Positions 21,830 through 62,832 of a stretch of DNA of 64,000 nt are shown in pieces. The DNA is taken from positions 248,001 through 312,000 of the forward strand of contig NZ_QEVW01000012.1 of NCBI RefSeq assembly GCF_003287275.1. Direction: 5' to 3'. The position numbers and the translations under genes are program-made. Under the pieces are notes generated by a model. The model saw only the letters and a program-made list of their open reading frames with translations, made no database searches and was not told the DNA's origin. Source of the stretch: Paenibacillus taichungensis (GTDB lineage: Bacteria > Bacillota > Bacilli > Paenibacillales > Paenibacillaceae). The stretch's first letter is position 1, and each line of letters starts with the position of its first letter.

Positions 21830-22389
21830 ATAAAATTTGAGCTTTTAACTCAATCAATAAGGCAACATAAGTTGCCAATCGGCGTTTGACCCGGCTGTCC
21901 GTATGGCCTTAACTTCCTTAAGAGAAGTGGTCAAAAATTATCTGCTGGAAAGACCTGATTCATGTTGATATATCTGCTTTCCAAAATCACAGGTCTTACA
22001 ATATCAGATACATAAAAAAAAATCAAGCGATCTCTAAAAATTTATTTATTCATCATTTTGGAACACACATTTCGCTCTTAGGCATATCTGATTATAATGT
22101 CAAATCTTTAAGCGTTTCTTCCTAATGTCTCCAGCTATTCCTCAATTTTTAAACTGACATGACAGCGATAACGATGTGTAACATGGAAGTTGGATTACCC
22201 TAAAACAAGTTGATTAGGTAGAATAATCCTTTATTTTATTATATCGAAGATAAATTGTTACACGAAGTTATGAAAAATAAAGTATGTCCGAAAATATTTT
22301 CTTTCAACTTGAAATTTTATACATTTTTGATAGAGAGATATGATATATTTGGTATGTCATTTAAAATATATCCCAGAAAAGAGGATCTT

Positions 22390-36404: not shown

Positions 36405-37487
36405 TTATTTCTTGCCGGTGACGGCTGTTACCACATCGTCGGCAACCTTGCCGTCTGCAATTGGGCCGGACATCATCCAATGTCTCGCTGACACTTTGAA
36501 CACATGGTTTTCCTTCACGGCTGGCATCGACTTCCACACATGGAGTTTCTCAATTTCCGTCGCTGCGGCGCTGTTCTTGTTGAAATCTTCTTCCGTGCTA
36601 ATCGATCCTCCGTAGATGGCAAACACATAATCAGCTCCAATGGAGGGCAGCTTCTCCAGCGATGTCGTGACTCCCCAATCGTCCTTAGTATCCTTCTGGA
36701 ATGCTGTAACGCTTTCGTCGGGAATTAACCCCAATTCAGTGTAGATAAGTGGAACGAAGCTCGGAAAGAACACCTGAAGATCCTTGTCCGACGGACGCAT
36801 GAAGACAACGGTTTTGTCCAGGCCCACAGCCGAAGTGATATCTTCCTTGGCCTGGTTCAGTTTATCAGTATTCGCCTGAAGCACCTCCTGCGCTTTATCT
36901 TCAAGGCCGGTTGCCTTGCCGATTTCCACAATGGTTGTCTTCCAATCATCCGGTGAATAGGCAACGGTAGGTGCTATCTTGCTCAGTTCCTCGTACGCTT
37001 TGTCGTCGATGGCGTTTCGCTGTACGATGATAAGGTCAGGCTGGGTTGCCAGGATAGCCTCCAGATTCGGATTGAAATCCGCATTTCCAGCGAGGGGGAT
37101 GTTCAATGCTTTGAGTTGGTCATCCAAGTAATAGCCATCAAAGTCGTATGCATAAACCATCGGTACGCCCAGGGACAACGTAAGATCCTCAAGACCAAAT
37201 ACGGCAACACGTTTTGGATGCAGCGGAACTTCCGTTTTGCCCATGGCATGTTCGATGACCTGAGTCTGAGGCTCTTCAGCAGTTTGAGTGACTGCGTCTG
37301 CGTTTGTCTTCGGCGTTTCTGTTGCGGCTAGCTCCCCTGCTGTATTTGTTTTATTTCCACAGGCAACTAGCATAAGTGAAAATACCAACAGCATGAGCAT
37401 CAAACCTGCAAATCCGCGTTTCCTTCCGTTTGTAGTCTTTTCCAAACGACCTCTTCTAAAGAGATCATAATTTTCTGTGTGAGACAT
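36405..37487 (-). CDS. Iron-siderophore ABC transporter substrate-binding lipoprotein
   Basis: A 360-aa lipoprotein. An unusually long cytoplasmic N-tail (about 27 residues) precedes the hydrophobic segment and lipobox (LMLVAC). The mature part is a class III TroA/FepB-type binding protein (VPLHPKRVAVFGLEDLTLSLGV; ATQPDLIIVQRN). It should capture a ferric siderophore outside the cell. No permease or ATPase gene is nearby, so it must use one encoded elsewhere. A Fur-type box lies 25-39 bp before the start. The upstream AraC/binding-protein regulator is its likely activator. The ribosome-binding site is GGAGGGGAACTC. Confidence 0.88.
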   Translation of the reverse strand: MSHTENYDLFRRGRLEKTTNGRKRGFAGLMLMLLVFSLMLVACGNKTNTAGELAATETPKTNADAVTQTAEEPQTQVIEHAMGKTEVPLHPKRVAVFGLEDLTLSLGVPMVYAYDFDGYYLDDQLKALNIPLAGNADFNPNLEAILATQPDLIIVQRNAIDDKAYEELSKIAPTVAYSPDDWKTTIVEIGKATGLEDKAQEVLQANTDKLNQAKEDITSAVGLDKTVVFMRPSDKDLQVFFPSFVPLIYTELGLIPDESVTAFQKDTKDDWGVTTSLEKLPSIGADYVFAIYGGSISTEEDFNKNSAAATEIEKLHVWKSMPAVKENHVFKVSARHWMMSGPIADGKVADDVVTAVTGKK

Positions 37488-43007: not shown

Positions 43008-44051
43008 TTACTTTTCGAGCAATGAAATCAGTCTTTGCAGCAGAACGGGCTCTTCCTTGCGGAATTGCTCGAACCGGAGTTTTACCTTCGCAAACACGGC
43101 TTTGTCTTCACGAATTTCATGACGGATGTATTGATCCCTTAGCTTCATTGCCCTGGTGGTTATATCCTGATAACCATTCACCAGTTCTTCGTCGTAGGGA
43201 ATCACTCCCTCATCTATCAAGTAGGCAATCCGTTCACTCATCATTTTTTTGTGCTCCCAGAGCACATGAAGATGCCTCACATCATTACGGTCACCAAGAC
43301 GAGGATCGTTGCTCTCTACCGCATCATAGTACATTTGCAAATAGTCGTAGACGTCAATTCCGAAAGCCTGTTCGTCATCAGGAATGTAATTAATGCGATT
43401 CAGATGAGTTTCTCCGTTCAGGTAATCATGCAGTTGGTCGAGTGCTACAATTTTATCAAAAGGATAAGGAGAATGCGGCTCATATTTGTAAAAATAAGTG
43501 TGATGATCCGCGGTAAGCCCTTCTCTCAGCAGATGTCTCATGGATTGGACAGCATCCAGGAACTCCGTGAACGGAATCTGTACATTTTGGTACACTCCCG
43601 TGTGGTCGAACATGGAAGCATCAAAAACACGTCTCTCCCAATGGAAACCGTATAGAAAAAGATGATGAGGAAACGGTTCCTGCTGATAGGCCGCCGCTGG
43701 CGGTAGCTTGGCTTCGTCCAAAAATACGACACAATAATAGCCGCTGCGAATCTGATCCGCGAAAAATTGGGGCCAGGCGTCCAGCGCCAAATGCTCCAAA
43801 ATCGTATAATTCACAGAGCATGTGAGCAGAAATGGATTGTTGAAATTCAGTTCGTTGGGTTTGCCCCGAAAAAAATCGATATAAAACTGTCTGCCATCCT
43901 CTAGAAAGGTTTTCTTGCAGGACAACTGAATGAAATTACTGTAATACCAAGGAATCGTTTCCTCATGTGCACTGGTAATCGAAAGCGTGTAAGCCCAGCG
44001 CAGAAATCCTTTAAGCGGCGGATTTAACACCGGCAGCTGTACGGCATTCAT
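43008..44051 (-). CDS. Papain/C39-like protein, possibly BtrH-like acyltransferase (last gene of biosynthetic operon)
   Basis: A 347-aa cytosolic protein that I do not recognise firmly. Residues about 100-185 (RSGYYCVVFLDEAKLPP, then PFPHHLFLYGFHWERRVFDAS) resemble the strand-His-strand-Asp part of C39-peptidase-like and BtrH-type folds, with His in PHHLFLYG and Asp in FDAS as possible catalytic residues; candidate Cys residues precede it (QLSCKK, LLTCSV). BtrH moves a carrier-bound acyl group onto an aminoglycoside. The C-terminal 150 residues are charged and helical without known motifs. It follows the permease gene by 12 bp. Acyl transfer or peptidase activity is inferred from fold resemblance and the carrier-protein context. 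Confidence 0.5.
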   Translation of the reverse strand: MNAVQLPVLNPPLKGFLRWAYTLSITSAHEETIPWYYSNFIQLSCKKTFLEDGRQFYIDFFRGKPNELNFNNPFLLTCSVNYTILEHLALDAWPQFFADQIRSGYYCVVFLDEAKLPPAAAYQQEPFPHHLFLYGFHWERRVFDASMFDHTGVYQNVQIPFTEFLDAVQSMRHLLREGLTADHHTYFYKYEPHSPYPFDKIVALDQLHDYLNGETHLNRINYIPDDEQAFGIDVYDYLQMYYDAVESNDPRLGDRNDVRHLHVLWEHKKMMSERIAYLIDEGVIPYDEELVNGYQDITTRAMKLRDQYIRHEIREDKAVFAKVKLRFEQFRKEEPVLLQRLISLLEK

Positions 44052-44063
44052 TCTTTCTCCCCC

Positions 44064-44867
44064 TTAACTGCTTGCACTACTATATCCCTTCACAGCCTGT
44101 TTCCAGAGCAATCGTATAATTGTGAAGAGTATGAGCGAAGCGACCAGCGCCAGTCCTGTATAGAGCCAGCTGAGCTGTCCTAGCAGGAACATCGGTCCGA
44201 AATTGGTAATCAGGAACAGTGGAATGGCAAAGGTACCGATCCGCCGGACCCAAGTTGGATATATTGCCATTGGAAAATTGTTGGCGTCCCAGGCGGAATG
44301 GGCAATCTCCGATGCAGAGCCCGTCTGAACGAATCGAAATGACAGCAATGCAGGGATAATCATTAGACAGTATGTGATGATAACAGAGACGAATAACAGC
44401 AACACAAATCCAGCAAGCTGGAGAAACGTCAGAGGTATGTCCATAGCATGCCAGCCAATGCCAATCATGACGAAACCAACTAAAATATCAGGGATTGGCA
44501 GCGCCAGATCGACATAACGCAAGGAAGCCATAAATTGAAGAGAAACCGGCTTCGTTAGCATTAGATCAAGTGACCCGTCCTTAATATATTCCGGAATTTT
44601 CGTAAAATTGGTGAAAAACAGCCCGACATACATTCCTGTCACCACGGTGTGCATGCCTATAAATAGAAGCAACCCTTCTGGCGGTATGCCGTCGACGTGA
44701 AGATCGGTGCGGAACACAACGAGTACATATAACAGTTTGGCGAGCAGGTAGACGGATTCCACCAGCAGGCTCATCATGAAATTGCCCCGAAACTCCATCT
44801 GGGCAATGAGACAATTTTTGATGAACATACCATACAAATGTGCGTATTTTCTCATGGTTCTAAACAT
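44064..44867 (-). CDS. ABC-2 type export permease (COG3694-like)
   Basis: A 267-aa membrane protein with about six helices; FTKIPEYIKDGSLDLMLTKPVSLQFMASLRYVD is the conserved loop of this permease family. It pairs with the permease encoded 12 bp upstream and the ATPase before that. Such NatA/DrrA-type three-gene exporters often move natural products or lipids. The ribosome-binding site is CGGAGATCC. Confidence 0.85.
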   Translation of the reverse strand: MFRTMRKYAHLYGMFIKNCLIAQMEFRGNFMMSLLVESVYLLAKLLYVLVVFRTDLHVDGIPPEGLLLFIGMHTVVTGMYVGLFFTNFTKIPEYIKDGSLDLMLTKPVSLQFMASLRYVDLALPIPDILVGFVMIGIGWHAMDIPLTFLQLAGFVLLLFVSVIITYCLMIIPALLSFRFVQTGSASEIAHSAWDANNFPMAIYPTWVRRIGTFAIPLFLITNFGPMFLLGQLSWLYTGLALVASLILFTIIRLLWKQAVKGYSSASS

Positions 44868-44879
44868 ATGGGATCTCCG

Positions 44880-45689
44880 CTACCCCCCAACCGCTGAATA
44901 TTTCTTCATGGATATGCGCCACGTGAGACGAGATAGCCATAAAAACAGAAGTATCCACCCGCACTGGATGAGCAATCCTTGATACATCGCCGCCACTTCC
45001 GTTTTGCCGCTAAGTACATTGACTGGAAAATAAATGGTATACGGAAACGGCGTGTACTGAAGTGCCTCCACTATCGAATCCCCAAAAATCTCCAACGGGA
45101 ACATACCTCCGCTCAGAATATTCACAAGCAGACTCGTAATGACGAAAAAATAAGAGATTTCGTTCAGATAAAAAGCACTTGCACAGATGCAGTAGGAAAT
45201 CAAGAAATTGAGCAATAGCGCCGCCGACAACGTAACTACGAACAAGATCAGCCGTATGATCTGGAACTCAAGCACACCACCTGCAGATGAGATCCAGATA
45301 ATCCCGACGAGCAGCACAGCGGTAACGCCGTAATAGATCGCCTTCTGTCCGAAAAAGGATACTAGCCGATATCCGAAGTAACTAACCGGTTTGATCAAAT
45401 ACTTGTTGAGGCCGCCGTTCTTGATATCATCGACGATCTGGTGCTCGAACTGGGTGGCGATCAGTTTGGATACCAGGCCAGCCAAGATTGTATACAATAT
45501 GATCTGATTATATGAATACGAGAATAGCGCCGTTTCGCCGGAATGTTGGTACACCGCTGTCCATATAAAATATTGAACAAGAATCGGAAACGCAGCTCCG
45601 AGAAGACCGAGAAAGAAGTGAAATCGGTATTCCATCGATTGCTGCACACCCATCGAAAAAACAGCCGTATACAATTTGCGTCCAGTCAT
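44880..45689 (-). CDS. ABC-2 type export permease (COG4587-like)
   Basis: A 269-aa membrane protein with about six helices; HQIVDDIKNGGLNKYLIKPVSYFGYRLVSFFGQKA is the equivalent conserved loop. It overlaps the ATPase stop by 4 bp and lies 12 bp before its partner permease. It is part of the exporter for the presumed cluster product. Confidence 0.85.
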   Translation of the reverse strand: MTGRKLYTAVFSMGVQQSMEYRFHFFLGLLGAAFPILVQYFIWTAVYQHSGETALFSYSYNQIILYTILAGLVSKLIATQFEHQIVDDIKNGGLNKYLIKPVSYFGYRLVSFFGQKAIYYGVTAVLLVGIIWISSAGGVLEFQIIRLILFVVTLSAALLLNFLISYCICASAFYLNEISYFFVITSLLVNILSGGMFPLEIFGDSIVEALQYTPFPYTIYFPVNVLSGKTEVAAMYQGLLIQCGWILLFLWLSRLTWRISMKKYSAVGG

Positions 45690-46669
45690 CCGACCGATTC
45701 CTTTTGGTAGAGCATGGAGATACTCTCTTCGATCGGTACGTCCTCAATCGTCCAGTCAACGATTGGAAACGAATCAAGCACAGCACGCGACACTTCTTTT
45801 AGACGGTGTTTGGGCAGCTCCAGAACAACACTGTATTCGTCTGCGCTGATCATTTTCCCAAATTTGGCCAGACGCTGCTCGGCAACCGGCTCCGAGAACT
45901 GCAACTTTACAATTTTATGCTCGCCAAACAGATCATTAATCTTATGAAGATCTCCGTCATACAGAAGACTTCCTTCGTTAATGATGATTGTCCGTTTGCA
46001 CAGGTCCTCTACGTCCTTCATGTAGTGGCTGGTCAGCAGAACCGTGGCACCAAACTGCTCATTATAATATTTCAGAAATTCCCGCACCCTCTTCTGCGAA
46101 GGGAAATCCAGGCCGATCGTTGGCTCGTCAAGATACAGCAGCTTTGGTCGGTGGATTAGAGCTGCGATTAGCTCCATTTTCATACGTTCGCCCAAGGACA
46201 GCCTGCGAACCTGTACATCCAGCAAGTCTTGCACATCAAGCATCTCTGATAGTTCGGCAAGACTTCGACGATAGAGATCATCCTCGACGTCATAAATACA
46301 TTTGTTCAAATAAATCGAATCGCTGGCCGGAAGGTCCCACCAAAGTTGATTTTTCTGACCCATTACAATGGAGAACAGCCGTTTGAACTCGTTCTTTCGC
46401 TCCCAAGGTACATAACCAAGGACGTCGGCTTCTCCACTTGTGGGATATAGAATACCCGACAACATTTTGAGCGTCGTGGTTTTACCTGCTCCGTTCGGAC
46501 CCAGAAATCCAACGCACTCCCCAGGGCCGATATCAAAGGAAACGGATTTAACCGCTTCCTTCACAAGTGATTTGCGAGCAAACAAGTTTTTCAGTGAATG
46601 TTTGAGTCCTGCTTCTTTCCGGTAATATACAAACGATTTGTGCAGTTCTCGTACACGGATAAAGTCCAT
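45686..46669 (-). CDS. ABC export ATPase (NatA/DrrA-like, COG4586)
   Basis: A 327-aa ATPase with Walker A GPNGAGKTT, signature LSLGERMKME (LSGGQ variant), Walker B LLYLDEPTIGLD and switch His in TSHYMKDVE. A C-terminal extension of about 80 residues is typical of this drug/polyketide-exporter group. The start ATG follows AGGAGGAGCGGGG, 58 bp after the radical SAM gene. It powers the two permeases that follow. Confidence 0.9.
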   Translation of the reverse strand: MDFIRVRELHKSFVYYRKEAGLKHSLKNLFARKSLVKEAVKSVSFDIGPGECVGFLGPNGAGKTTTLKMLSGILYPTSGEADVLGYVPWERKNEFKRLFSIVMGQKNQLWWDLPASDSIYLNKCIYDVEDDLYRRSLAELSEMLDVQDLLDVQVRRLSLGERMKMELIAALIHRPKLLYLDEPTIGLDFPSQKRVREFLKYYNEQFGATVLLTSHYMKDVEDLCKRTIIINEGSLLYDGDLHKINDLFGEHKIVKLQFSEPVAEQRLAKFGKMISADEYSVVLELPKHRLKEVSRAVLDSFPIVDWTIEDVPIEESISMLYQKESVG

Positions 46670-46727
46670 CCCCGCTCCTCCTGAATGATTGCATGTTTTC
46701 CCTTATTGGTGCTTAAAGTTAAAGCGA

Positions 46728-47903
46728 TTAAACTCCGTTGTTATACAGAAGCACACATTTGGAGCAAATCGGTGTCAAACCGCAGGCTAGAATCTCGCGT
46801 TGTTTTCGCAGATCCTCACCATGAAAAATATCGGCCACACTTTCTTCATATAAATTACCAACACTGAATTCCGGAAAAAATTTGCATGGATTGACCTTAC
46901 CGTCTGGCATCACGTCCATCCGGTTCGAGATCGAGAAACACTTGGTCCGATTCATAGCCGGCTTTTCACTACCTCGAATAAAACCTTCTACTTCTTCGGG
47001 CTCCAACGCAGGCTGATAGCGGATACGTACATTCCACACTCGTGAATTGACTCGTTTAAATTCCTCAATTAATGTATCGTAACGATCTGGTGAAATGTGA
47101 AAAGTGAACGAGTGCCAGCTGTTCTTGTGGTCGCTTGCAAAGCGGGAGGCAAGGTGCGGAAAGTGCGCATCAAAGTAGGTATCCATTTTTTCCGCCGTAT
47201 CGGAAGGGATGTACCATGGGAAGCAGAAGTACACGGAATCAACGCCCAACTCTTCAAAGAATTCCATCAAGCTATACAGCTGATCAACCATCTGGTCATT
47301 TACGGTCAGAGCAACGGACACTTTACCTTTGTACAAGCCCTGCTTTTGAAGATCCAGCAGCAGCTGTATGGCATGAATTACTTTTTTGAATGTGCCTTTG
47401 CCCCGAATCGCGTCATTCTCCTTCTCGAATCCTTCCAGGCTAACCAGCATGACTAAATTCTTAGACATTTTCAAAATGGAATCCAGCTTTTGTTCAATGA
47501 GAATCGCGTTTGTACAAATGGTCGTATGCCGGTCTTCCTTGGCCAGCAGTTCTGCCAGTTCATCGAACTTGGAGTAAAATAGCGGTTCTCCGCCCCACAG
47601 GAACACACGTGATTTGCGTTCTCTCGTTTCGGCGAGCAGTTTCTCCACGACGGGAATCTCGATTTCGTCTCTCTTCACTTCACTGGCAAAGCCGTGATGA
47701 AAACCATCTGGATTCCATTCAAAACAATGCTTGCAGCGCAGGTTACAGCCGTTATTAAGCTTGATTCCGATCTCATAAGGCACGGGCGCGGCATACGTCG
47801 GGTCCTCCCGGCGTTTCCTTCCCGTTTCTGCGAGCGGAACGAGGGTTCTTTTCATATTTTGGAATGTCAGCTTATCAAACGTAACTGCTGTTTTCGGCTG
47901 CAT
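46728..47903 (-). CDS. Radical SAM/SPASM-domain enzyme
   Basis: A 391-aa enzyme. The CX3CX2C motif for the SAM iron-sulfur cluster is C53-C57-C60 (NGCNLRCKHC); FLWGGEPLFY is the GGE motif. The C-terminus has CX12GX4C (CFSISNRMDVMPDGKVNPC) and CX5CX2C (CGLTPICSKC), a SPASM-like auxiliary-cluster pattern. SPASM enzymes often modify ribosomal peptides, but some act on carrier-bound or free small molecules. No precursor peptide gene is present, so an ACP-bound or glycosylated substrate is suspected. The start ATG follows GGGGAGGAAAACG and overlaps the glycosyltransferase-like gene by 29 bp. Confidence 0.87.
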   Translation of the reverse strand: MQPKTAVTFDKLTFQNMKRTLVPLAETGRKRREDPTYAAPVPYEIGIKLNNGCNLRCKHCFEWNPDGFHHGFASEVKRDEIEIPVVEKLLAETRERKSRVFLWGGEPLFYSKFDELAELLAKEDRHTTICTNAILIEQKLDSILKMSKNLVMLVSLEGFEKENDAIRGKGTFKKVIHAIQLLLDLQKQGLYKGKVSVALTVNDQMVDQLYSLMEFFEELGVDSVYFCFPWYIPSDTAEKMDTYFDAHFPHLASRFASDHKNSWHSFTFHISPDRYDTLIEEFKRVNSRVWNVRIRYQPALEPEEVEGFIRGSEKPAMNRTKCFSISNRMDVMPDGKVNPCKFFPEFSVGNLYEESVADIFHGEDLRKQREILACGLTPICSKCVLLYNNGV

Positions 47904-48981
47904 ACGTTTTCCTCCCCAAATGATTGATTTTTGATCGCTGCTCCAGCAAACGTCTGTACAGCTCTTCGAGATGTTGTTCCGAGTAGTGTAGGGCTTTCCA
48001 TTCTGCGAACCGGATACCAAAACCACAAGACTGCCAATAGTTTGAATTCTGAAGCTCATGGTCGCCGAAAGGCTCCAACATAACAAAAGGTATTCCGTAG
48101 GACAACGAATCGTTCAATGTTGCTCCTCCAGGCTTGCTGATAATAGCAGCGCAATTGCGCATCATATCCGTGTAATCAGAGTAATTACGCAGCGGAATTG
48201 CCCGAAGAATGCCTTCTTCACGCACATATCGGTTCATTGGTGGAAACGAATGCCGCCCTTGGGCATCCCGACTCCACGGATTCCATGAAGCATCTGTACC
48301 GAAGTAGCGTGTGCTTCCATCGTCCTCCTCCACCTCTGAAGCATCGTAGACAATCACATTCAGCAAATAACCAAGTTGGCGAAGCTCACTAATCGTTGAC
48401 GCGTACGTTCCTATCCCCCAGCCGCCGCCATGGATCAAAATGCGTCCGTCACGCTGTGCATAAGGCAGGAGCTCCTTTTCATCTGAGGCAATATAGCAAT
48501 CTGGAGACAACCTTGAAGGCTCGTAAAGCCAGACATTATCGTAATCCGGATACAAGGACTTGTGTACTTTAAACGATGGCGTATCGCACGCATCCAAACG
48601 GATCAGTTGAATATCCAGAGACGTGTGCGCAATGGATTTGTACCTCTCCAGGATCGGGAGCCAAAAACCGGTAAACACAGCAAACTGGGACACGCCATCA
48701 CGTAACCAGGATTCCAACAGGAACTGAACTTCTGCTTCATTTAGGGAAGAATCTACAGGCTTGGCCAGCTTATGTCCCATAAGGGCAACGGAGAAATCGG
48801 CATGAAATGCTTTTTTGGTAGAATTAATCTTGGACCTGATTTCTTCATGATACAGATTCTCCAGCACGTGAATGCCTGTTTTAACACCTCTATCTTGCAG
48901 GTACGTATGCAGATGCATAGCCGGAATGTATGCACCAAGCGAATTGCCCGAAGCAAGCAGGGTAACCGAAGATGAATTCAT
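47875..48981 (-). CDS. GT-B fold glycosyltransferase-like protein (MurG/UGT type)
   Basis: A 368-aa protein. The N-terminal lobe opens VTLLASGNSLGAYIPAMHLHTYLQDRGV, as in GT-B transferases; the C-terminal lobe has ILIHGGGWGIGTYASTI and ISKPGGATLNDSLSYGIPFVMLEPFGDHE, which matches the nucleotide-sugar binding region of MurG/UGT-type enzymes (GG-x(n)-E/D-x-E). It should glycosylate a small molecule with a UDP- or dNDP-sugar, but neither is known. The start ATG follows CGGAGGCTGCGC. It lies 22 bp after the ATP-grasp gene. Confidence 0.72.
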   Translation of the reverse strand: MNSSSVTLLASGNSLGAYIPAMHLHTYLQDRGVKTGIHVLENLYHEEIRSKINSTKKAFHADFSVALMGHKLAKPVDSSLNEAEVQFLLESWLRDGVSQFAVFTGFWLPILERYKSIAHTSLDIQLIRLDACDTPSFKVHKSLYPDYDNVWLYEPSRLSPDCYIASDEKELLPYAQRDGRILIHGGGWGIGTYASTISELRQLGYLLNVIVYDASEVEEDDGSTRYFGTDASWNPWSRDAQGRHSFPPMNRYVREEGILRAIPLRNYSDYTDMMRNCAAIISKPGGATLNDSLSYGIPFVMLEPFGDHELQNSNYWQSCGFGIRFAEWKALHYSEQHLEELYRRLLEQRSKINHLGRKTYAAENSSYV

Positions 48982-49003
48982 GCGCAGCCTCCGCATTACA
49001 GAT

Positions 49004-50401
49004 TTAGTTGTACACTTTAATGGACAAGTCGGCGAGTACCTGCCTCAGGCTTACGATCAGTTCACTGCGATGTTCTTCGTCACGGCCCACCACCGAGATA
49101 TACAGTCGTCCCTTCGGCATTCCGCGATGACTCTGAATTCCCTCGGATTTTCGCCGAGAGGTCATAATACCATTCACCATTAAGGTGTTAGAGGAAATAG
49201 GTACAATTCCATACTTACCTTGCCCTCTGAATAGAAGACCAGATACATGCAGAGTGTCCATCAGACTTTCAAATGTGAAGCCTTCAGGTAGACCGAGAGA
49301 CAGAAAGGTAAGCAGGCCACTGTAGCCGTACATTTCCCATCCTTTGTCAAGGTAAGTATTAATAAGACCCATGGATTGGCGGGCGTTAATCTCTACAATG
49401 GGCACGATAACCCCGTCCTCCAGAATCATGGAATCGAAGCAAACGAAACCATGGTATCCATCTTCAAATAATATCCGAAGTGCCTTTTCCATTGTATCGA
49501 AATAACCCGCGTTCTCCAGCAGAAGAAGCAAAACTTCATCTGCTCTAATAGAACCGCCGTAATTCTGCTGCTGATTCAACATGCGCTGAACCGAAAGAAA
49601 CTCCCTCTCACCGTTCGTATGAATGAACCAGTGTGAGCTGAAATCAAGTTCTTTTCTCAGTAGTGGTTCCAGTAGAAATTGCGAGCGCATCCCCCTTCTC
49701 TCCTGCTTTTCCAGGTGCTCTCCTATCCTTCGCTGCATGGCTTCATTTTCAATGAGCAGGTTGCCCTTGCCGGAAACGCCAAATGGATCTTTTAGCAAAT
49801 ACGCCCCTCGCTTCAGCAACGTGTTTCCGACAGCCTGTACTTCTGCTACACTATTCACTTCCGTACCATAACACTGCTCTCCGATTTTGGTCAGGAGTCG
49901 GTTGGAGTAGAATTTGGAATTCACATGTTTAACCGTCTCAAGGTCCGGCAAAGAACCCAATGATCCAGCAACATGCATGTACCGCGCTGTATCAGCCGTA
50001 ATGGCATATGGAGATAGATGTTTTACGTTGTGGGTCAATATTTCTTCACACTGTCGACTGTCTGAAGCAAGACTGAACATGCACTGCTTGAATACGTCCG
50101 GTTCCGGTAGGTAGCTCTTCTCATCGTTCAAATCAAAGTGGTAACGGTTATGAAAAGAAAAACCTAACCCGTTCAGATACTCGTACAGTTTTGGATCGAT
50201 TTTGCAGCGGGTGTAGTGGATATCGTCAGGCTCGCAAAATGGAAATAACAGCTCGTCCATACATAGGACAATGGTTTCCCGGTCCTGATCAGGCATGGCG
50301 GGTAACTTGGCTAAGTTCGGATCTCTCCATCTCGTTTCGGGGTCAAACGTCCCCATAACGATCGCTGGAACCCCCCTGGCCTCACTTCTGGACATCTTCA
50401 T
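49004..50401 (-). CDS. ATP-grasp ligase (pre-ATP-grasp/BtrJ- or PGM1-like)
   Basis: A 465-aa ligase. The N-terminal 170 residues are a Rossmann-like pre-ATP-grasp region (AIVMGTFDPETRW, ETIVLCMDELLFPF). The ATP-grasp domain has RGAYLLKDPFGVSGKGNLLI (nucleotide-binding loop) and the metal site VEINARQSMG. A C-terminal segment follows the catalytic core. BtrJ of butirosin synthesis joins glutamate to the ACP BtrI; PGM1-like enzymes form peptide bonds. An ACP gene overlapping its start by 20 bp makes aminoacyl-ACP or ACP-tethered amide formation likely here. Confidence 0.75.
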   Translation of the reverse strand: MKMSRSEARGVPAIVMGTFDPETRWRDPNLAKLPAMPDQDRETIVLCMDELLFPFCEPDDIHYTRCKIDPKLYEYLNGLGFSFHNRYHFDLNDEKSYLPEPDVFKQCMFSLASDSRQCEEILTHNVKHLSPYAITADTARYMHVAGSLGSLPDLETVKHVNSKFYSNRLLTKIGEQCYGTEVNSVAEVQAVGNTLLKRGAYLLKDPFGVSGKGNLLIENEAMQRRIGEHLEKQERRGMRSQFLLEPLLRKELDFSSHWFIHTNGEREFLSVQRMLNQQQNYGGSIRADEVLLLLLENAGYFDTMEKALRILFEDGYHGFVCFDSMILEDGVIVPIVEINARQSMGLINTYLDKGWEMYGYSGLLTFLSLGLPEGFTFESLMDTLHVSGLLFRGQGKYGIVPISSNTLMVNGIMTSRRKSEGIQSHRGMPKGRLYISVVGRDEEHRSELIVSLRQVLADLSIKVYN

Positions 50402-50657
50402 ACAATGATTGCTCTTGCGACTGGCAGCTTTTCAGAAATGTCATAAATGTATCGATCGACTGGAGATGCTCATAATCAAATTCGTCATAGTCAATGATTA
50501 CGTTTAACTGATCCTCGACTTTGAGCATAAACTGAATCATTTGCAGGGAATCGAGACCAATATCGTTATTGAGTTCCGTTGCTGGGGACAGGGATTGGCG
50601 TAGTTCCGGTTGGTCTTCTTTGATAGTGCACAAAATATCTACGATTTTATCGTACAT
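50382..50657 (-). CDS. Acyl carrier protein (biosynthetic)
   Basis: A 91-aa carrier protein with the phosphopantetheine serine S37 in IGLDSLQMIQF and acidic helices typical of ACPs. It is the first gene of an operon with an ATP-grasp ligase, glycosyltransferase-like, radical SAM, exporter and C39-like genes, so it is a dedicated carrier, not the fatty-acid AcpP. The start ATG follows AAAGGAGTGTAGTT. A strong promoter lies about 123 bp upstream. Confidence 0.9.
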   Translation of the reverse strand: MYDKIVDILCTIKEDQPELRQSLSPATELNNDIGLDSLQMIQFMLKVEDQLNVIIDYDEFDYEHLQSIDTFMTFLKSCQSQEQSLYEDVQK

Positions 50658-50779: not shown

Positions 50780-50808
50780 ATTATCTTTATAATGACATTT
50801 TATGTCAA
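50780..50808 (-). promoter_or_regulatory. Sigma-A promoter of the ACP/ATP-grasp/radical SAM operon
   Basis: Minus strand TTGACA (50808-50803), a 17-bp spacer, and GATAAT (50785-50780). The leader to the ACP start would be about 115 nt and contains a short palindrome, AAACCAGGTTT. Confidence 0.75.
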
Positions 50809-51004: not shown

Positions 51005-51883
51005 GTGATTGAAATTAGGATTGAATTGGTACGTCAATTAATCGATAGTCAATTTCCGAAGTGGAAAGGCTTAACGATAACACCTGTAGAAAAAAGCGGG
51101 CATGATAACCGTACCTATCGATTAGGTGACGAAATGACGATTCGTTTACCAAGTCACGAACGTTACGCCTCTGCTGTAGAAAAAGAACTGAAGTGGCTTC
51201 CAGTTTTCAAACCTCAGCTGTCCTTGCCCATTCCAGCTCCCATTGCAAAAGGTGAACCTTCGGATGACTATCCCCTTCCCTGGTCAATCAACCAATGGAT
51301 TGCAGGCGAGACTGTCACGCATATCAACGTACTCGACCTAAGCGTTTTTGCCGAAGAACTCGCTACATTTCTGAGAGAACTCGAAGCCATTGATGGTAGT
51401 CATGGCATACCCGCAGGCATTCAAAATTTTCATCGCGGTGGGAACTTAGCGGTTTATGATACAGATACAAGGACCGTAATTGAAAAGGTATCTGGCCATT
51501 ACGATACAAAACTCATGACTGAAATATGGGAGCTTGCTCTGGCAACGAAATATCAAGCTGCACCGTTATGGCTGCATGGTGATGTTGCAGTAGGTAATCT
51601 GCTCGTGCAAGATGGACGATTATGCGGAGTTATTGATTTTGGAACTATGGGCGTGGGCGATCCTTCCAGTGATCTTGTGATGGCCTGGAACTTTTTTGAT
51701 GATGTAAGTCGTGAGATATTCCTAAGCTGCATGAATGTTGACCAAGACACGGTTGATCGTGCCCGTGGTTGGGCTTTGTGGAAAGCACTCATCTCCTACG
51801 ATTGGAATGAACAAGGCTCGGAAGCCTCGAATTGGGGAAAGCATGTCATAGATGTCATTATTCGTGACTATAAATCGCTCTAA
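51005..51883 (+). CDS. Aminoglycoside phosphotransferase (APH) family protein
   Basis: A 292-aa protein-kinase-like phosphotransferase. HGDVAVGNLLV is the catalytic loop (HGDxxxxN) and VIDFGTMGVGDPSSDL the DFG-like metal site. GHDNRTYRLGDEMTIRLPS is the nucleotide-binding strand-loop-strand. Members phosphorylate aminoglycosides or other hydroxylated small molecules, and chromosomal copies are common and often of unknown substrate. The start is GTG after AAAAGGAGGCGAGAAC. It is divergent from the ACP-headed biosynthetic operon, so self-resistance is possible but unproven. Confidence 0.85.
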   Translation: MIEIRIELVRQLIDSQFPKWKGLTITPVEKSGHDNRTYRLGDEMTIRLPSHERYASAVEKELKWLPVFKPQLSLPIPAPIAKGEPSDDYPLPWSINQWIAGETVTHINVLDLSVFAEELATFLRELEAIDGSHGIPAGIQNFHRGGNLAVYDTDTRTVIEKVSGHYDTKLMTEIWELALATKYQAAPLWLHGDVAVGNLLVQDGRLCGVIDFGTMGVGDPSSDLVMAWNFFDDVSREIFLSCMNVDQDTVDRARGWALWKALISYDWNEQGSEASNWGKHVIDVIIRDYKSL

Positions 51884-53931: not shown

Positions 53932-54105
53932 CCGGTTCACCTCCTCTGCTCTACTTATAACTCATACTTTAAAGCTTTACATCGCCAAGGGCAAGGAAGA
54001 TAGATGTGTGTTATTCCGGTTCCGTGAACAGGCTGTGACGATCTAAATATGGTAAACTAGGATATAGCATATTTTAGAAATTATTTTAACATGGGGGTGC
54101 CGAAC

Positions 54106-55197
54106 TTGACCAATGTGCAAAAAGAGATTGACCGACGCAAGCTGGATGACAAACTGCCTTCCATGCCTTGGTTCGTTCAGCAATTCATTGACTATAAATT
54201 ACCCGATTTATCTCCTTCAACTTTGCTTGAATATTTAAGGGATTATGAAGCCTTCTTTGGCTGGTTACGCGCGGAAGGATTATCCGAAGCAAGCTCCAAT
54301 AAGGAAGTTACATTGCTTGAACTGGAAGTCCTTCGAATGGAATCAGTGACATCATATCGATTATTTTTGGCCACCAAGCGTGAAGGAGCCAACTCCAGAA
54401 TCACGGTTTCCCGCAAGCTTTCTTCTCTGCGTTCACTCTTTCATTATTTAAGTCAGATTGCGGAAGACGAAGATTTCTACCCCCTGCTGAAACGAAATAT
54501 TATGGCGAAGATTGAGATCAAACGTACCCATAAACCCAAAGATACAGCAGCCAAACTAAAGGGTAAACTTCTGGAGGAAGAAGAGTTACTGGAGTTTATC
54601 GGATACATCCTTGAAGGATATGCCGTGGATATGGAAAAGAACAAACAGGCGATTTACTCGCATGACCTAAACAAAGAACGAGATGCCTGCATCGCCAGCC
54701 TCATTCTGAATTCGGGTCTGCGTGTATCTGAAGTGGTGAACCTGAACGTGGATGATCTGGACCTCAACAATAAGCTGCTGTATGTATATCGCAAAGGTAA
54801 TAATGATGAGACGTTTAAGACGCCAGTGTATTTTAGAGAACAAGCCAAGGATGAACTCGCAACCTATATCAATCTGCGCCAGTCACGTTACCGCACACCC
54901 AAACGGGAAAAAGGCTTGTTTATCGCTCTTCGCAATGGAGAGTCAGAAGGAAGTCGGATGACCAAACGAGCCATACAGGCCATGATCATGAAGTACGCCA
55001 AACAATTTGGCAAGCCGTACCTGACTGTGCATAAATTGCGCCATTCTTTTGCGACCGACTATTATTTGCAAAATGATATCTATAAAACGAAGGAACAGCT
55101 TGGACACGCTTCTACGGAAACAACCGAAATTTACGCGCACCTCACGGATAAAACGATGTCTGAAGCGATTGAACGACGTACAGATGATGGGATGTAG
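54106..55197 (+). CDS. xerS: Site-specific tyrosine recombinase XerS
   Basis: About 363 aa. The N-terminal SAM-like core-binding domain spans residues 20-150, and the catalytic domain has Arg in LILNSGLRVSEV, Lys in YRKGNN, HKLRH, HAS and the nucleophilic Tyr in TTEIYAH. It matches the single-recombinase XerS system of Firmicutes that resolves chromosome dimers. The start is uncertain: a TTG (LTNVQKEIDRR) follows GGGGGTG at 6 nt, while an ATG 15 bp earlier lacks a site. No dif-like site was recognised beside the gene. Confidence 0.87.
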   Translation: MTNVQKEIDRRKLDDKLPSMPWFVQQFIDYKLPDLSPSTLLEYLRDYEAFFGWLRAEGLSEASSNKEVTLLELEVLRMESVTSYRLFLATKREGANSRITVSRKLSSLRSLFHYLSQIAEDEDFYPLLKRNIMAKIEIKRTHKPKDTAAKLKGKLLEEEELLEFIGYILEGYAVDMEKNKQAIYSHDLNKERDACIASLILNSGLRVSEVVNLNVDDLDLNNKLLYVYRKGNNDETFKTPVYFREQAKDELATYINLRQSRYRTPKREKGLFIALRNGESEGSRMTKRAIQAMIMKYAKQFGKPYLTVHKLRHSFATDYYLQNDIYKTKEQLGHASTETTEIYAHLTDKTMSEAIERRTDDGM

Positions 55198-62457: not shown

Positions 62458-62473
62458 GGTCTTCCTCCCTCAT

Positions 62474-62650
62474 TATGCCTGCGAAGTTAGTTGTCGGATT
62501 CGGATGGAGGAAACCACCCTATAGGTTCAATTACATTAATAATTTTATGTAGCCCTAATTCACCCCAAGCCGTGTGCAAATGAATCTTCCCCAAGCACAC
62601 TCTGCATCGTTACATCCCCCACACTCCCAACTCCGGAAGTTTCGGCAGGA
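62474..62650 (-). ncRNA. ydaO/yuaA-type c-di-AMP riboswitch
   Basis: On the minus strand it keeps the ydaO core: TGCCGAAAC, CTTGGGGTGAATTAGGGCT, and CCGAATCCGACAACTAAC before TTCGCAGGCAT. CCTGC near the 5' end and GCAGG at the 3' end can form P1. It lies 17 bp upstream of the LysM/3D gene. ydaO riboswitches are typical of wall-hydrolase and potassium-transport genes. Confidence 0.9.
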
Positions 62651-62832
62651 ACAAATATATCACAATTTTGTAACCAAGAGTCGTAGTAAATGTTACCATC
62701 TCGCTAATTCACTTCAATACTTTTGCTGAATTCAAGCGGTTTTTTCAAAAAAATGTCTATTTGAGCTTATATCGTTGATGACAGAAACGTTACTTTTTAT
62801 GTATATCTGTAAGTATCCTCCCATAACAAACA

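Follow-up and report, generated by a model that had tools for sequence, protein, structure and literature searches.

In its parts, the closest working analogue of the locus described here would be the lincosamide synthetase of Streptomyces (CcbD/LmbD, CcbC/LmbC, LmbN-CP/CcbZ-CP, LmbT/CcbT), in place of BtrJ and BtrH of butirosin synthesis. The locus is a minus-strand operon of eight open reading frames (ORFs) in a 64,000-nucleotide stretch of the Paenibacillus taichungensis genome (contig NZ_QEVW01000012.1, positions 248,001 to 312,000; the whole stretch is henceforth called the window), and encodes an acyl/peptidyl carrier protein (ACP), an ATP-grasp ligase (P0002), a glycosyltransferase (GT), a radical SAM enzyme, an ABC-2 exporter, and a protein of the papain/C39 fold (P0008). 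Lincosamide synthetase likewise works with a carrier-bound amino acid, a GT, and an amide synthase of cysteine-protease fold, which is the fold of P0008; a further likeness is the PIG-L deacetylase encoded in some relatives of the operon. To our knowledge, lincosamide synthetase has no radical SAM enzyme or ABC-2 pump of the operon's kind. It activates its substrate via an adenylation domain (PMC4351081), whereas the operon encodes an ATP-grasp enzyme and no AMP-binding domain was found in it by Pfam. CcbD uses a Cys-His-Glu triad to link an amino acid held on a carrier protein to an amino sugar by an amide bond (PMC12945683), while the P0008 family has no conserved Cys.

The butirosin side-chain pathway (BtrI, BtrJ, BtrK, BtrO, BtrH, BtrG) together with BtrN resembles the operon in its ACP, its PGM1-family ligase, a papain fold related to BtrH_N, and a BtrN-like radical SAM cluster, but differs by a decarboxylase, a monooxygenase, and a BtrH_N protein with a His-Cys pair, none of which was found in the window operon by Pfam. 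BtrH_N is described as closely related to the C39 family (PMC10318531) and a BtrJ-like ATP-grasp enzyme is mentioned (PMC4431377). The fold of P0008 is common to the closthioamide amide synthase CtaG and to AziU2-U3 (azinomycin); the CtaG entries name variants of C11, H128, and D144, and only the His has an invariant positional counterpart in P0008 (H129, 53/53 aligned rows; D144, the acid in the window, 17/53). As far as is known, the CtaG and AziU2-U3 clusters differ from the operon. Ligases of the PGM1 and BesA types have, as P0002 does, a full-length fold with a pre-ATP-grasp domain, but are 12–17% identical to P0002, which is paired with a GT gene in all loci compared (80/80, see below). 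The Pbo cluster (PMC8473136) holds radical SAM, ATP-grasp, and carrier-protein genes, and glycosyltransferase terms are absent from its main text. No described pathway with this gene set was found in the open literature searched (subscription papers, preprints, and MIBiG lay outside its scope), which agrees with a previous reading made from the letters of the window alone (henceforth the sequence-only reading). The operon would be a variant of carrier-protein-dependent aminoacyl-sugar assembly, a known kind of system, with an unusual gene core.

Conservation and distribution of the gene core

The reading we prefer, tentatively, is that the operon belongs to a widespread family that assembles a glycosylated amino acid (aminoacyl sugar/glycoside) on a carrier protein and subsequently exports it. 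It is based on the gene set, folds, motifs, conservation, and coupling across genomes, all of which were observed. Contigs of 84,980 species were scanned with the ATP-grasp protein, yielding matches to a pattern at 214 places, of which 116 were confirmed; all counts out of 80 refer to the best 80 of these 116 loci. The 80 loci lie in 78 genomes, with two loci each in P. athensensis and P. puerhi, and comprise 71 Paenibacillus loci (69 genomes), 4 from Clostridium, 1 from Cohnella, 1 from a Bacillota bin, 2 from Methylococcales bins (one named Methylococcaceae, the other Candidatus Methylumidiphilus), and 1 from a Nostoc bin. Metagenome bins account for 4 of the 9 non-Paenibacillus loci and for one Paenibacillus locus (L083). 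The GT gene is located directly downstream of the ATP-grasp gene in 80/80 loci, and an ACP gene is present in 79/80 (directly upstream of the ATP-grasp gene in 70/80). A close radical SAM enzyme (>38% identity) is encoded in 69/80 loci, a close ABC ATPase (>55% identity) in 64/80, the permease pair in 54/80, and a P0008 relative in 52/80. Gene order is hence conserved well beyond the strain, the gene set being shared by members of Paenibacillus and by a few unrelated bacteria.

Within the genus, relatives of the ATP-grasp protein (E ≤ 1e-20) were detected in 52/75 genomes and an orthologue (identity ≥ 76%) in 11/75 (own genome counted), and the radical SAM profile at E ≤ 1e-50 matched 4/398 sampled genomes of the phylum, two of them outside Paenibacillus. 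Distances of ATP-grasp, GT, radical SAM, and ABC proteins between loci correlate at r 0.94–0.97, values that are not corrected for kinship of the hosts. The Methylococcales and Nostoc copies are nearest each other (radical SAM 65–66% identity), a likeness that points to transfer between phyla, although caution is due because these copies come from bins. At the Nostoc bin locus (L125, 273–3236, minus strand), the radical SAM gene lies about 7 kb off on the opposite strand beside a carbamoyltransferase-like gene (by eye). The host genome of the window itself carries a second, distant ATP-grasp gene (L032, 9279–10622, minus strand) (27–29% identity) with like-sized relatives elsewhere in the genus; no other operon genes were found near it, nor near its relatives in L042–L044. 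A related cluster occurs twice in a single genome (L040 and L041), once with several genes fragmented and once with its ATP-grasp gene in two pieces; these are decaying duplicates.

Ten loci (P. tyrfis/ehimensis/elgii type) are split: the ATP-grasp, GT, ABC ATPase, and C39-like genes are kept, the radical SAM and permease genes are missing, and an ACP was detectable in nine. In all five of these ten that were tested, a radical SAM gene (61–62% identity) and a permease gene (48–50%) were located elsewhere in the genome, the two genes sharing a contig and lying within about 5 kb of each other in four cases and being on different contigs in the fifth. Two of these second loci were read and contained both permeases, a second radical SAM gene, and a KAS III-like gene (KAS III by eye), and one of the two also a Gfo/Idh gene (by eye). 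That the ATPase and the permeases of one exporter are both retained, though encoded at separate sites, speaks for a common pathway of these genes.

Selection was estimated as the ratio of nonsynonymous to synonymous substitution rates (dN/dS; Nei-Gojobori) for the window against L053, L054, L055, L069, and L058, pairs that share the window and are thus not independent; L072 was left out, as its saturated dS gave no ratio. The ratios were 0.013–0.019 for the radical SAM enzyme, 0.012–0.042 for the ABC ATPase, 0.026–0.073 for the permeases, 0.033–0.070 for the ACP, 0.071–0.106 for the C39-like protein, 0.106–0.163 for the GT, and 0.140–0.181 for the ATP-grasp ligase. Constraint is accordingly strongest on the radical SAM enzyme and the pump, drift is greatest in the ligase and the GT, and the overall range (0.012–0.181 over eight genes) shows that these ORFs have not come to lie together by accident.

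Operon, promoter, and protein assignments

The operon (positions 43008–50657 of the window; host genome 6.99 Mb, genus Paenibacillus) was located by ORF reading, and its features are collected in Table 1. From the coordinates, the junctions in gene order are -20, +7, -29, +58, -4, +12, and +12 bp. In the promoter scan, 15 sites were detected, with the listed sigma-A type site as the best; since 13.9 ± 4.1 sites are expected at the lower threshold of the scan, the scan by itself proves nothing. The exact string TTGACA-N17-GATAAT was found at most 250 bp ahead of the ACP gene in 24/80 relatives, namely in 24 of the first 26 (L052–L075, without L076–L077) and in none of the other 54. The dyad TGACATAAAATGTCA at this promoter is exact in L053, L054, L055, and L069, and in L072 and L073 its place is taken by a different dyad (TGACAGTCCCTGTCA and TGACAGTCCTTGTCA); exact dyads with 5-base arms were restricted to these six among the 80 loci. 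That differing dyads occupy the same place in L072 and L073 suggests a regulator site at the promoter.

Table 1. Features of the operon and its immediate surroundings (positions in the window)
Feature	Length (aa)	Position	Strand	Basis
Acyl/peptidyl carrier protein (ACP)	91	50382..50657	-	PF00550 E 4.2e-7; phosphopantetheine serine in DSL, residues 36-38
Pre-ATP-grasp/PGM1-type carboxylate ligase (P0002)	465	49004..50401	-	Profile and fold comparison
GT-B-like glycosyltransferase (GT)	373	47875..48996	-	UgtP/MurG/EryCIII-type C-terminal half
Radical SAM enzyme	391	46728..47903	-	PF04055 E 4.7e-21, PF13186 E 2.2e-11
ABC-2 exporter ATPase	327	45686..46669	-	PF00005 E 1.6e-23; DrrA-like TIGR01188 E 1.1e-56, under cut-off
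ABC-2 permease 1	269	44880..45689	-	PF06182 E 3e-20
ABC-2 permease 2	267	44064..44867	-	PF06182 E 3.3e-37
Papain/C39-fold protein (P0008), BtrH/CcbD/CtaG group	347	43008..44051	-	AlphaFold model, predicted local distance difference test (pLDDT) 88.1
Sigma-A type promoter TTGACA-17-GATAAT		50780..50808	-	11/12 to consensus; 123-151 bp upstream of ACP start
Dyad TGACATAAAATGTCA		50793-50807		Overlaps -35 hexamer of operon promoter
APH-family kinase gene		51005-51883		PF01636; divergent from operon start

The phosphopantetheine serine is present in all 80 aligned ACPs (window and 79 relatives), in the context DSL in 73, ESL in 4, DSI in 2, and RSM in 1. For the ligase, no Pfam or NCBIfam model matched at cut-off, and the family test with PF18604 and PF18105 gave no match; among 38 members of its family, seven matched PF18105 and four matched PF18604 at E ≤ 0.1. 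The profile of P0002 nevertheless aligned at full length with PGM1-type proteins of related clusters, one of which was shown to carry PF18604 and PF18105 (hhalign, probability 100, E 2.4e-45, 414 columns). Its AlphaFold model (pLDDT 93.4) has as nearest solved folds 8ynd/8ynq (an ATP-grasp peptide ligase from Streptomyces), 3wvq/3wvr (Foldseek E 1.5e-15 to 3.6e-14), which we take to be PGM1, and 8yi6 (BesA). Residues K204, G208, G211, G213, E245, D323, E337, and N339, core residues of the ATP-grasp fold, are invariant in 38/38 sequences.

The GT resembles diglucosyl diacylglycerol synthases, EryCIII, and MurG in its C-terminal half only, and all of these matches are under curated cut-offs: NCBIfam PRK13608 gave E 2.8e-7, and the processive diacylglycerol beta-glucosyltransferase 9wde was matched at E 1.5e-7 over profile positions 279–362 only. 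The start of the radical SAM enzyme was set at an ATG within a frame of 452 open codons, and the Pfam scan used the protein minus its first Met. Its CX3CX2C motif (C53/C57/C60) is accompanied by one auxiliary four-Cys site (C322, C340, C380, C383), the combination by which SPASM/twitch proteins of BtrN type are recognized, and all seven cysteines are invariant in 8/8 sequences. The four auxiliary cysteines align with cysteines of BtrN that we take to be its cluster ligands; BtrN oxidises a secondary alcohol.

The tight eight-gene operon on the minus strand, with overlaps or gaps of at most 58 bp, had been proposed by the sequence-only reading and was borne out, as were its strong single promoter (by the hexamer match and the exact string in relatives), the ACP with a DSL serine, the radical SAM/SPASM enzyme (by both Pfam domains), and the ABC-2 exporter. 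Its pre-ATP-grasp ligase is right in fold by full-length profile and model comparisons, though Pfam remained below threshold. The proposed MurG/UGT-like transferase holds for the C-terminal half, on which the call as a whole is based. The proposed C39/BtrH-like protein stands as to fold, which is that of CcbD, CtaG, and AziU2-U3; a conserved catalytic Cys was not found, as detailed below.

The papain/C39-fold protein

P0008 matched no Pfam or NCBIfam family at cut-off. For BtrH_N (PF14399), there was no match at E ≤ 1 in P0008, and a 51%-identical relative reached E 0.041, under the cut-off; against BtrH_N proteins, hhalign returned a probability of 94. The profile searched against sequences of solved structures gave four weak matches to unrelated helical proteins (best E 0.071). 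In the fold search, 13 PDB chains were retrieved at E ≤ 0.001, all of them AziU2-U3, CtaG, or CcbD (E 1.5e-7 to 2.2e-6).

The family alignment has 53 rows, made up of the window and the relatives from each of the 52 loci where P0008 was matched. H129 is present in 53/53 rows, and from fold and position we infer it to be equivalent to His128/His131 of the fold relatives. No conserved Cys was found in the family: the top column is C45 (36/53 rows), which is not part of the model's first helix. Within aligned residues 5–40, a Cys occurs in 14/53 rows, ten of them (L087–L096) from one clade and near residue 32, and among the rows listed only L110 has a Cys at the N-terminal end of that helix. In a smaller alignment (41 rows, 40/52 loci), the respective values were 5/41 for residues 5–40 and 35/41 for C45; the share thus rose when all 52 loci were included, with no position conserved. 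Global-mode hhalign of the P0008 N-terminus against BtrH_N-type profiles gave no reliable N-terminal alignment; the call of a missing Cys hence draws on the alignment of the family and on where the helix is predicted to begin, and not on matching single residues with those of CcbD or CtaG. By comparison, ten BtrH_N proteins from related clusters (12 loci encode one) share an invariant His-Cys pair. The missing catalytic Cys makes acyl transfer via a cysteine intermediate doubtful, and the P0008 family may act by direct aminolysis, by another catalytic residue, or merely in ACP docking.

Accessory genes in related loci

Accessory genes were counted over the 80 loci with a single query each (E ≤ 1e-6) in the whole fetched DNA, so that counts may miss distant members and include genes outside the clusters; representative proteins were compared with Pfam and NCBIfam models. 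A GH3 (beta-N-acetylhexosaminidase-like) and a zinc-type dehydrogenase gene occur together in the same 13/80 loci, a Gfo/Idh gene in 22/80, an NAD-dependent epimerase/dehydratase in 17/80, an FkbM methyltransferase in 13/80, a glucose-1-phosphate cytidylyltransferase in 7/80, a nucleoside diphosphate (NDP)-sugar dehydrogenase in 6/80, a KAS III-like gene in 5/80, and PIG-L in 4/80. The cytidylyltransferase and NDP-sugar dehydrogenase representatives exceed the NCBIfam cut-off; the GH3 representative is over the Pfam cut-off and just under the NCBIfam beta-N-acetylhexosaminidase cut-off. These genes point to a sugar, perhaps to differing sugars per clade.

In eight Paenibacillus loci (L113, L120, L122, L126–L129, L131), a second ACP, a second PGM1-type ligase, a pyridoxal-phosphate (PLP) decarboxylase of the DAP-decarboxylase family, and a BtrH_N protein are encoded together. 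Judged by its genes, this set is a butirosin-like acyl module beside the core operon that might supply gamma-amino acyl side chains. A simple butirosin-type module was rejected as an explanation of the operon, given that a distinct one co-occurs with the core. The core ACP and ligase are therefore probably something else, and the equation of core ACP, ligase, and C39-like protein with BtrI, BtrJ, and BtrH, on which the sequence-only reading had drawn, is not supported, the P0008 family also having no conserved Cys. Its outline of an amino acid loaded on the ACP, altered by the radical SAM enzyme, joined to a glycosylated acceptor, and exported survives in part: a conserved operon for carrier-protein-based biosynthesis and export remains, and the comparison with BtrJ and BtrH oversimplifies.

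Proposed pathway and alternative explanations

In the assembly of a glycosylated amino acid on a carrier protein, the reactions, their order, and the substrate are all inferred. The DSL serine of the ACP would be phosphopantetheinylated, and the pre-ATP-grasp ligase would convert a carboxylate (an amino acid is the likeliest candidate) into an acyl phosphate that is passed to the ACP thiol. With a sugar nucleotide as donor, the GT would glycosylate the acyl unit or its acceptor, and the radical SAM enzyme, with its BtrN-like single auxiliary cluster, would carry out a redox reaction or epimerisation on the sugar or acyl part. The protein of CcbD/BtrH fold would then join the ACP thioester with an amine acceptor, the amide being formed without the usual cysteine nucleophile, and the dedicated ABC-2 pump would carry the product out. 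With tailoring genes that differ by clade, the products of the family are probably several related compounds and not a single one. That the fold of P0008 matches CcbD, which acts on a carrier-bound amino acid and an amino sugar, counts in favour of this assembly, as does the recurrence of the promoter string in 24 relatives while flanks are shared with only 4.

Several observations weigh against it. A P0008 relative was not detectable in 28/80 loci, the permease pair is missing in 26/80, a close ABC ATPase in 16/80, and a close radical SAM enzyme in 11/80 (fetched DNA); 10/80 loci lack an ACP directly upstream, and 56/80 lack the promoter string upstream of the ACP. The sugar genes are located in relatives, not in the window operon, the GT has no Pfam family at cut-off besides its half-length similarity, and the high correlation of distances is partly due to shared ancestry of the host species. 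The Cys counts of the P0008 family belong here as well. Furthermore, the nearest folds of the ligase are the peptide ligase (8ynd, 8ynq) and BesA, and its acceptor may be an amine and not the ACP.

This last point leads to the explanation that the ATP-grasp enzyme couples two small molecules in free form, the activity for which the 8ynd ligase is named and which PGM1 and BesA also have, while the ACP, loaded by a host enzyme, carries another acyl group, so that a glycosylated small peptide or acyl-peptide results. The best fold matches (8ynd/8ynq, 3wvq/3wvr, BesA) favour it, as do the 8/80 loci in which another PGM1-type ligase has an ACP of its own, together with a decarboxylase and a BtrH_N protein, so that loading of the ACP may not fall to the core ligase. 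The position of the ACP gene directly upstream of the ligase gene in 70/80 loci, its presence in 79/80, and the 20-bp overlap of both genes in the window speak against this, and no adenylating or other loading enzyme was found by Pfam among the proteins of the window operon; we thus regard this peptide-ligase explanation as unlikely, though deserving real weight. Less probable still is an envelope function, in which acyl-ACP, the UgtP/MurG-like GT, and the ABC-2 pump would serve to synthesize and translocate an aminoacylated glycolipid or surface glycan and not a secreted metabolite. Among named proteins, the GT is most closely related to diglucosyl diacylglycerol synthases, dN/dS is low for the radical SAM enzyme (0.013–0.019) and the ABC ATPase (0.012–0.042), and PF06182 permeases are not specific to secreted products. 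Patchy occurrence in the genus, with relatives in 52/75 genomes and orthologues (identity ≥ 76%) in only 11/75, fits an envelope component poorly, as do the varying genomic surroundings of the operon, the fold relatives of P0008 (AziU2-U3 and CtaG are, we assume, antibiotic-pathway proteins), and the butirosin-like and KAS III-like genes in relatives.

Maturation and export of a ribosomally synthesized and post-translationally modified peptide (RiPP) by the radical SAM/SPASM enzyme, the C39-like protein, and the ABC exporter, with the ATP-grasp enzyme as macrocyclase, is very improbable. About half of the best 25 of 81 NCBIfam relatives of the radical SAM enzyme are peptide or protein maturases, all under cut-off, and a C39-like fold adjoins the exporter. 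No precursor gene was seen in the operon, whose junctions are at most 58 bp, or in the leader, where inspection of the alignment revealed no conserved ORF, and flanks are common to 4/24 relatives only; the PGM1-type ATP-grasp, the BtrN-aligned radical SAM domain, the BtrH/CcbD fold, and the ACP in 79/80 loci also argue against a RiPP. A RiPP system was hence rejected on the missing precursor in operon and leader, short ORFs away from the operon being outside the search.

Carrier-bound assembly of a glycosylated amino acid, which we continue to prefer, might also follow a new logic: an amino acid tethered to the ACP by the ATP-grasp ligase would be glycosylated on the carrier, the conjugate rebuilt by the radical SAM enzyme with its single auxiliary cluster, and the product released by direct aminolysis on a cysteine-less CcbD-type fold, as a unit spread across Bacillota, Methylococcales, and Nostoc with clade-specific decoration. 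In this full form, the proposal is doubtful.

Surroundings of the operon and other features of the window

Flanking DNA of the window was matched (blastn, E ≤ 1e-5) in 4/24 promoter-string relatives, in 3 upstream and in 4 downstream, L052 and L069 having little upstream DNA. Genes resembling nrdEF (named by eye) are convergent to the operon end; by tblastn, nrdEF were found flanking the operon in L047, L048, L049, and L051 and not in L046 and L050, the genes of the operon itself being 76–99% identical. The APH-family kinase is also located beside the operon in L047, L049, and L051, and none was found beside L046 and L050 by tblastn. The conserved unit is thus the operon with its promoter, in varying surroundings.

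Elsewhere in the window, an AraC-type regulator fused to a periplasmic-binding domain (PF12833 and PF01497; 37592–39250) lies beside a PF01497 protein (36408–37487), the pair being likely an iron-siderophore regulator and uptake protein. The Rfam family SpF59 (ldcC), named from Streptococcus, was matched at 21879–21933 (minus strand) with 70.2 bits (gathering score 37.2), a c-di-AMP riboswitch at 62460–62657 (minus strand), and a phage-integrase family gene (PF00589) at 54091–55194 near a moeA-type gene.

Implications

The cluster family is present in dozens of Paenibacillus genomes, and its product was not found in the open literature searched. As the ATP-grasp ligase and P0008 fall under the Pfam and NCBIfam cut-offs and the GT is weakly matched, genome mining based on domains may miss the family. 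Its wider interest lies in whether glycosylation can take place on a carrier-bound amino acid, and whether a protein of CcbD/BtrH fold can form an amide without a cysteine.

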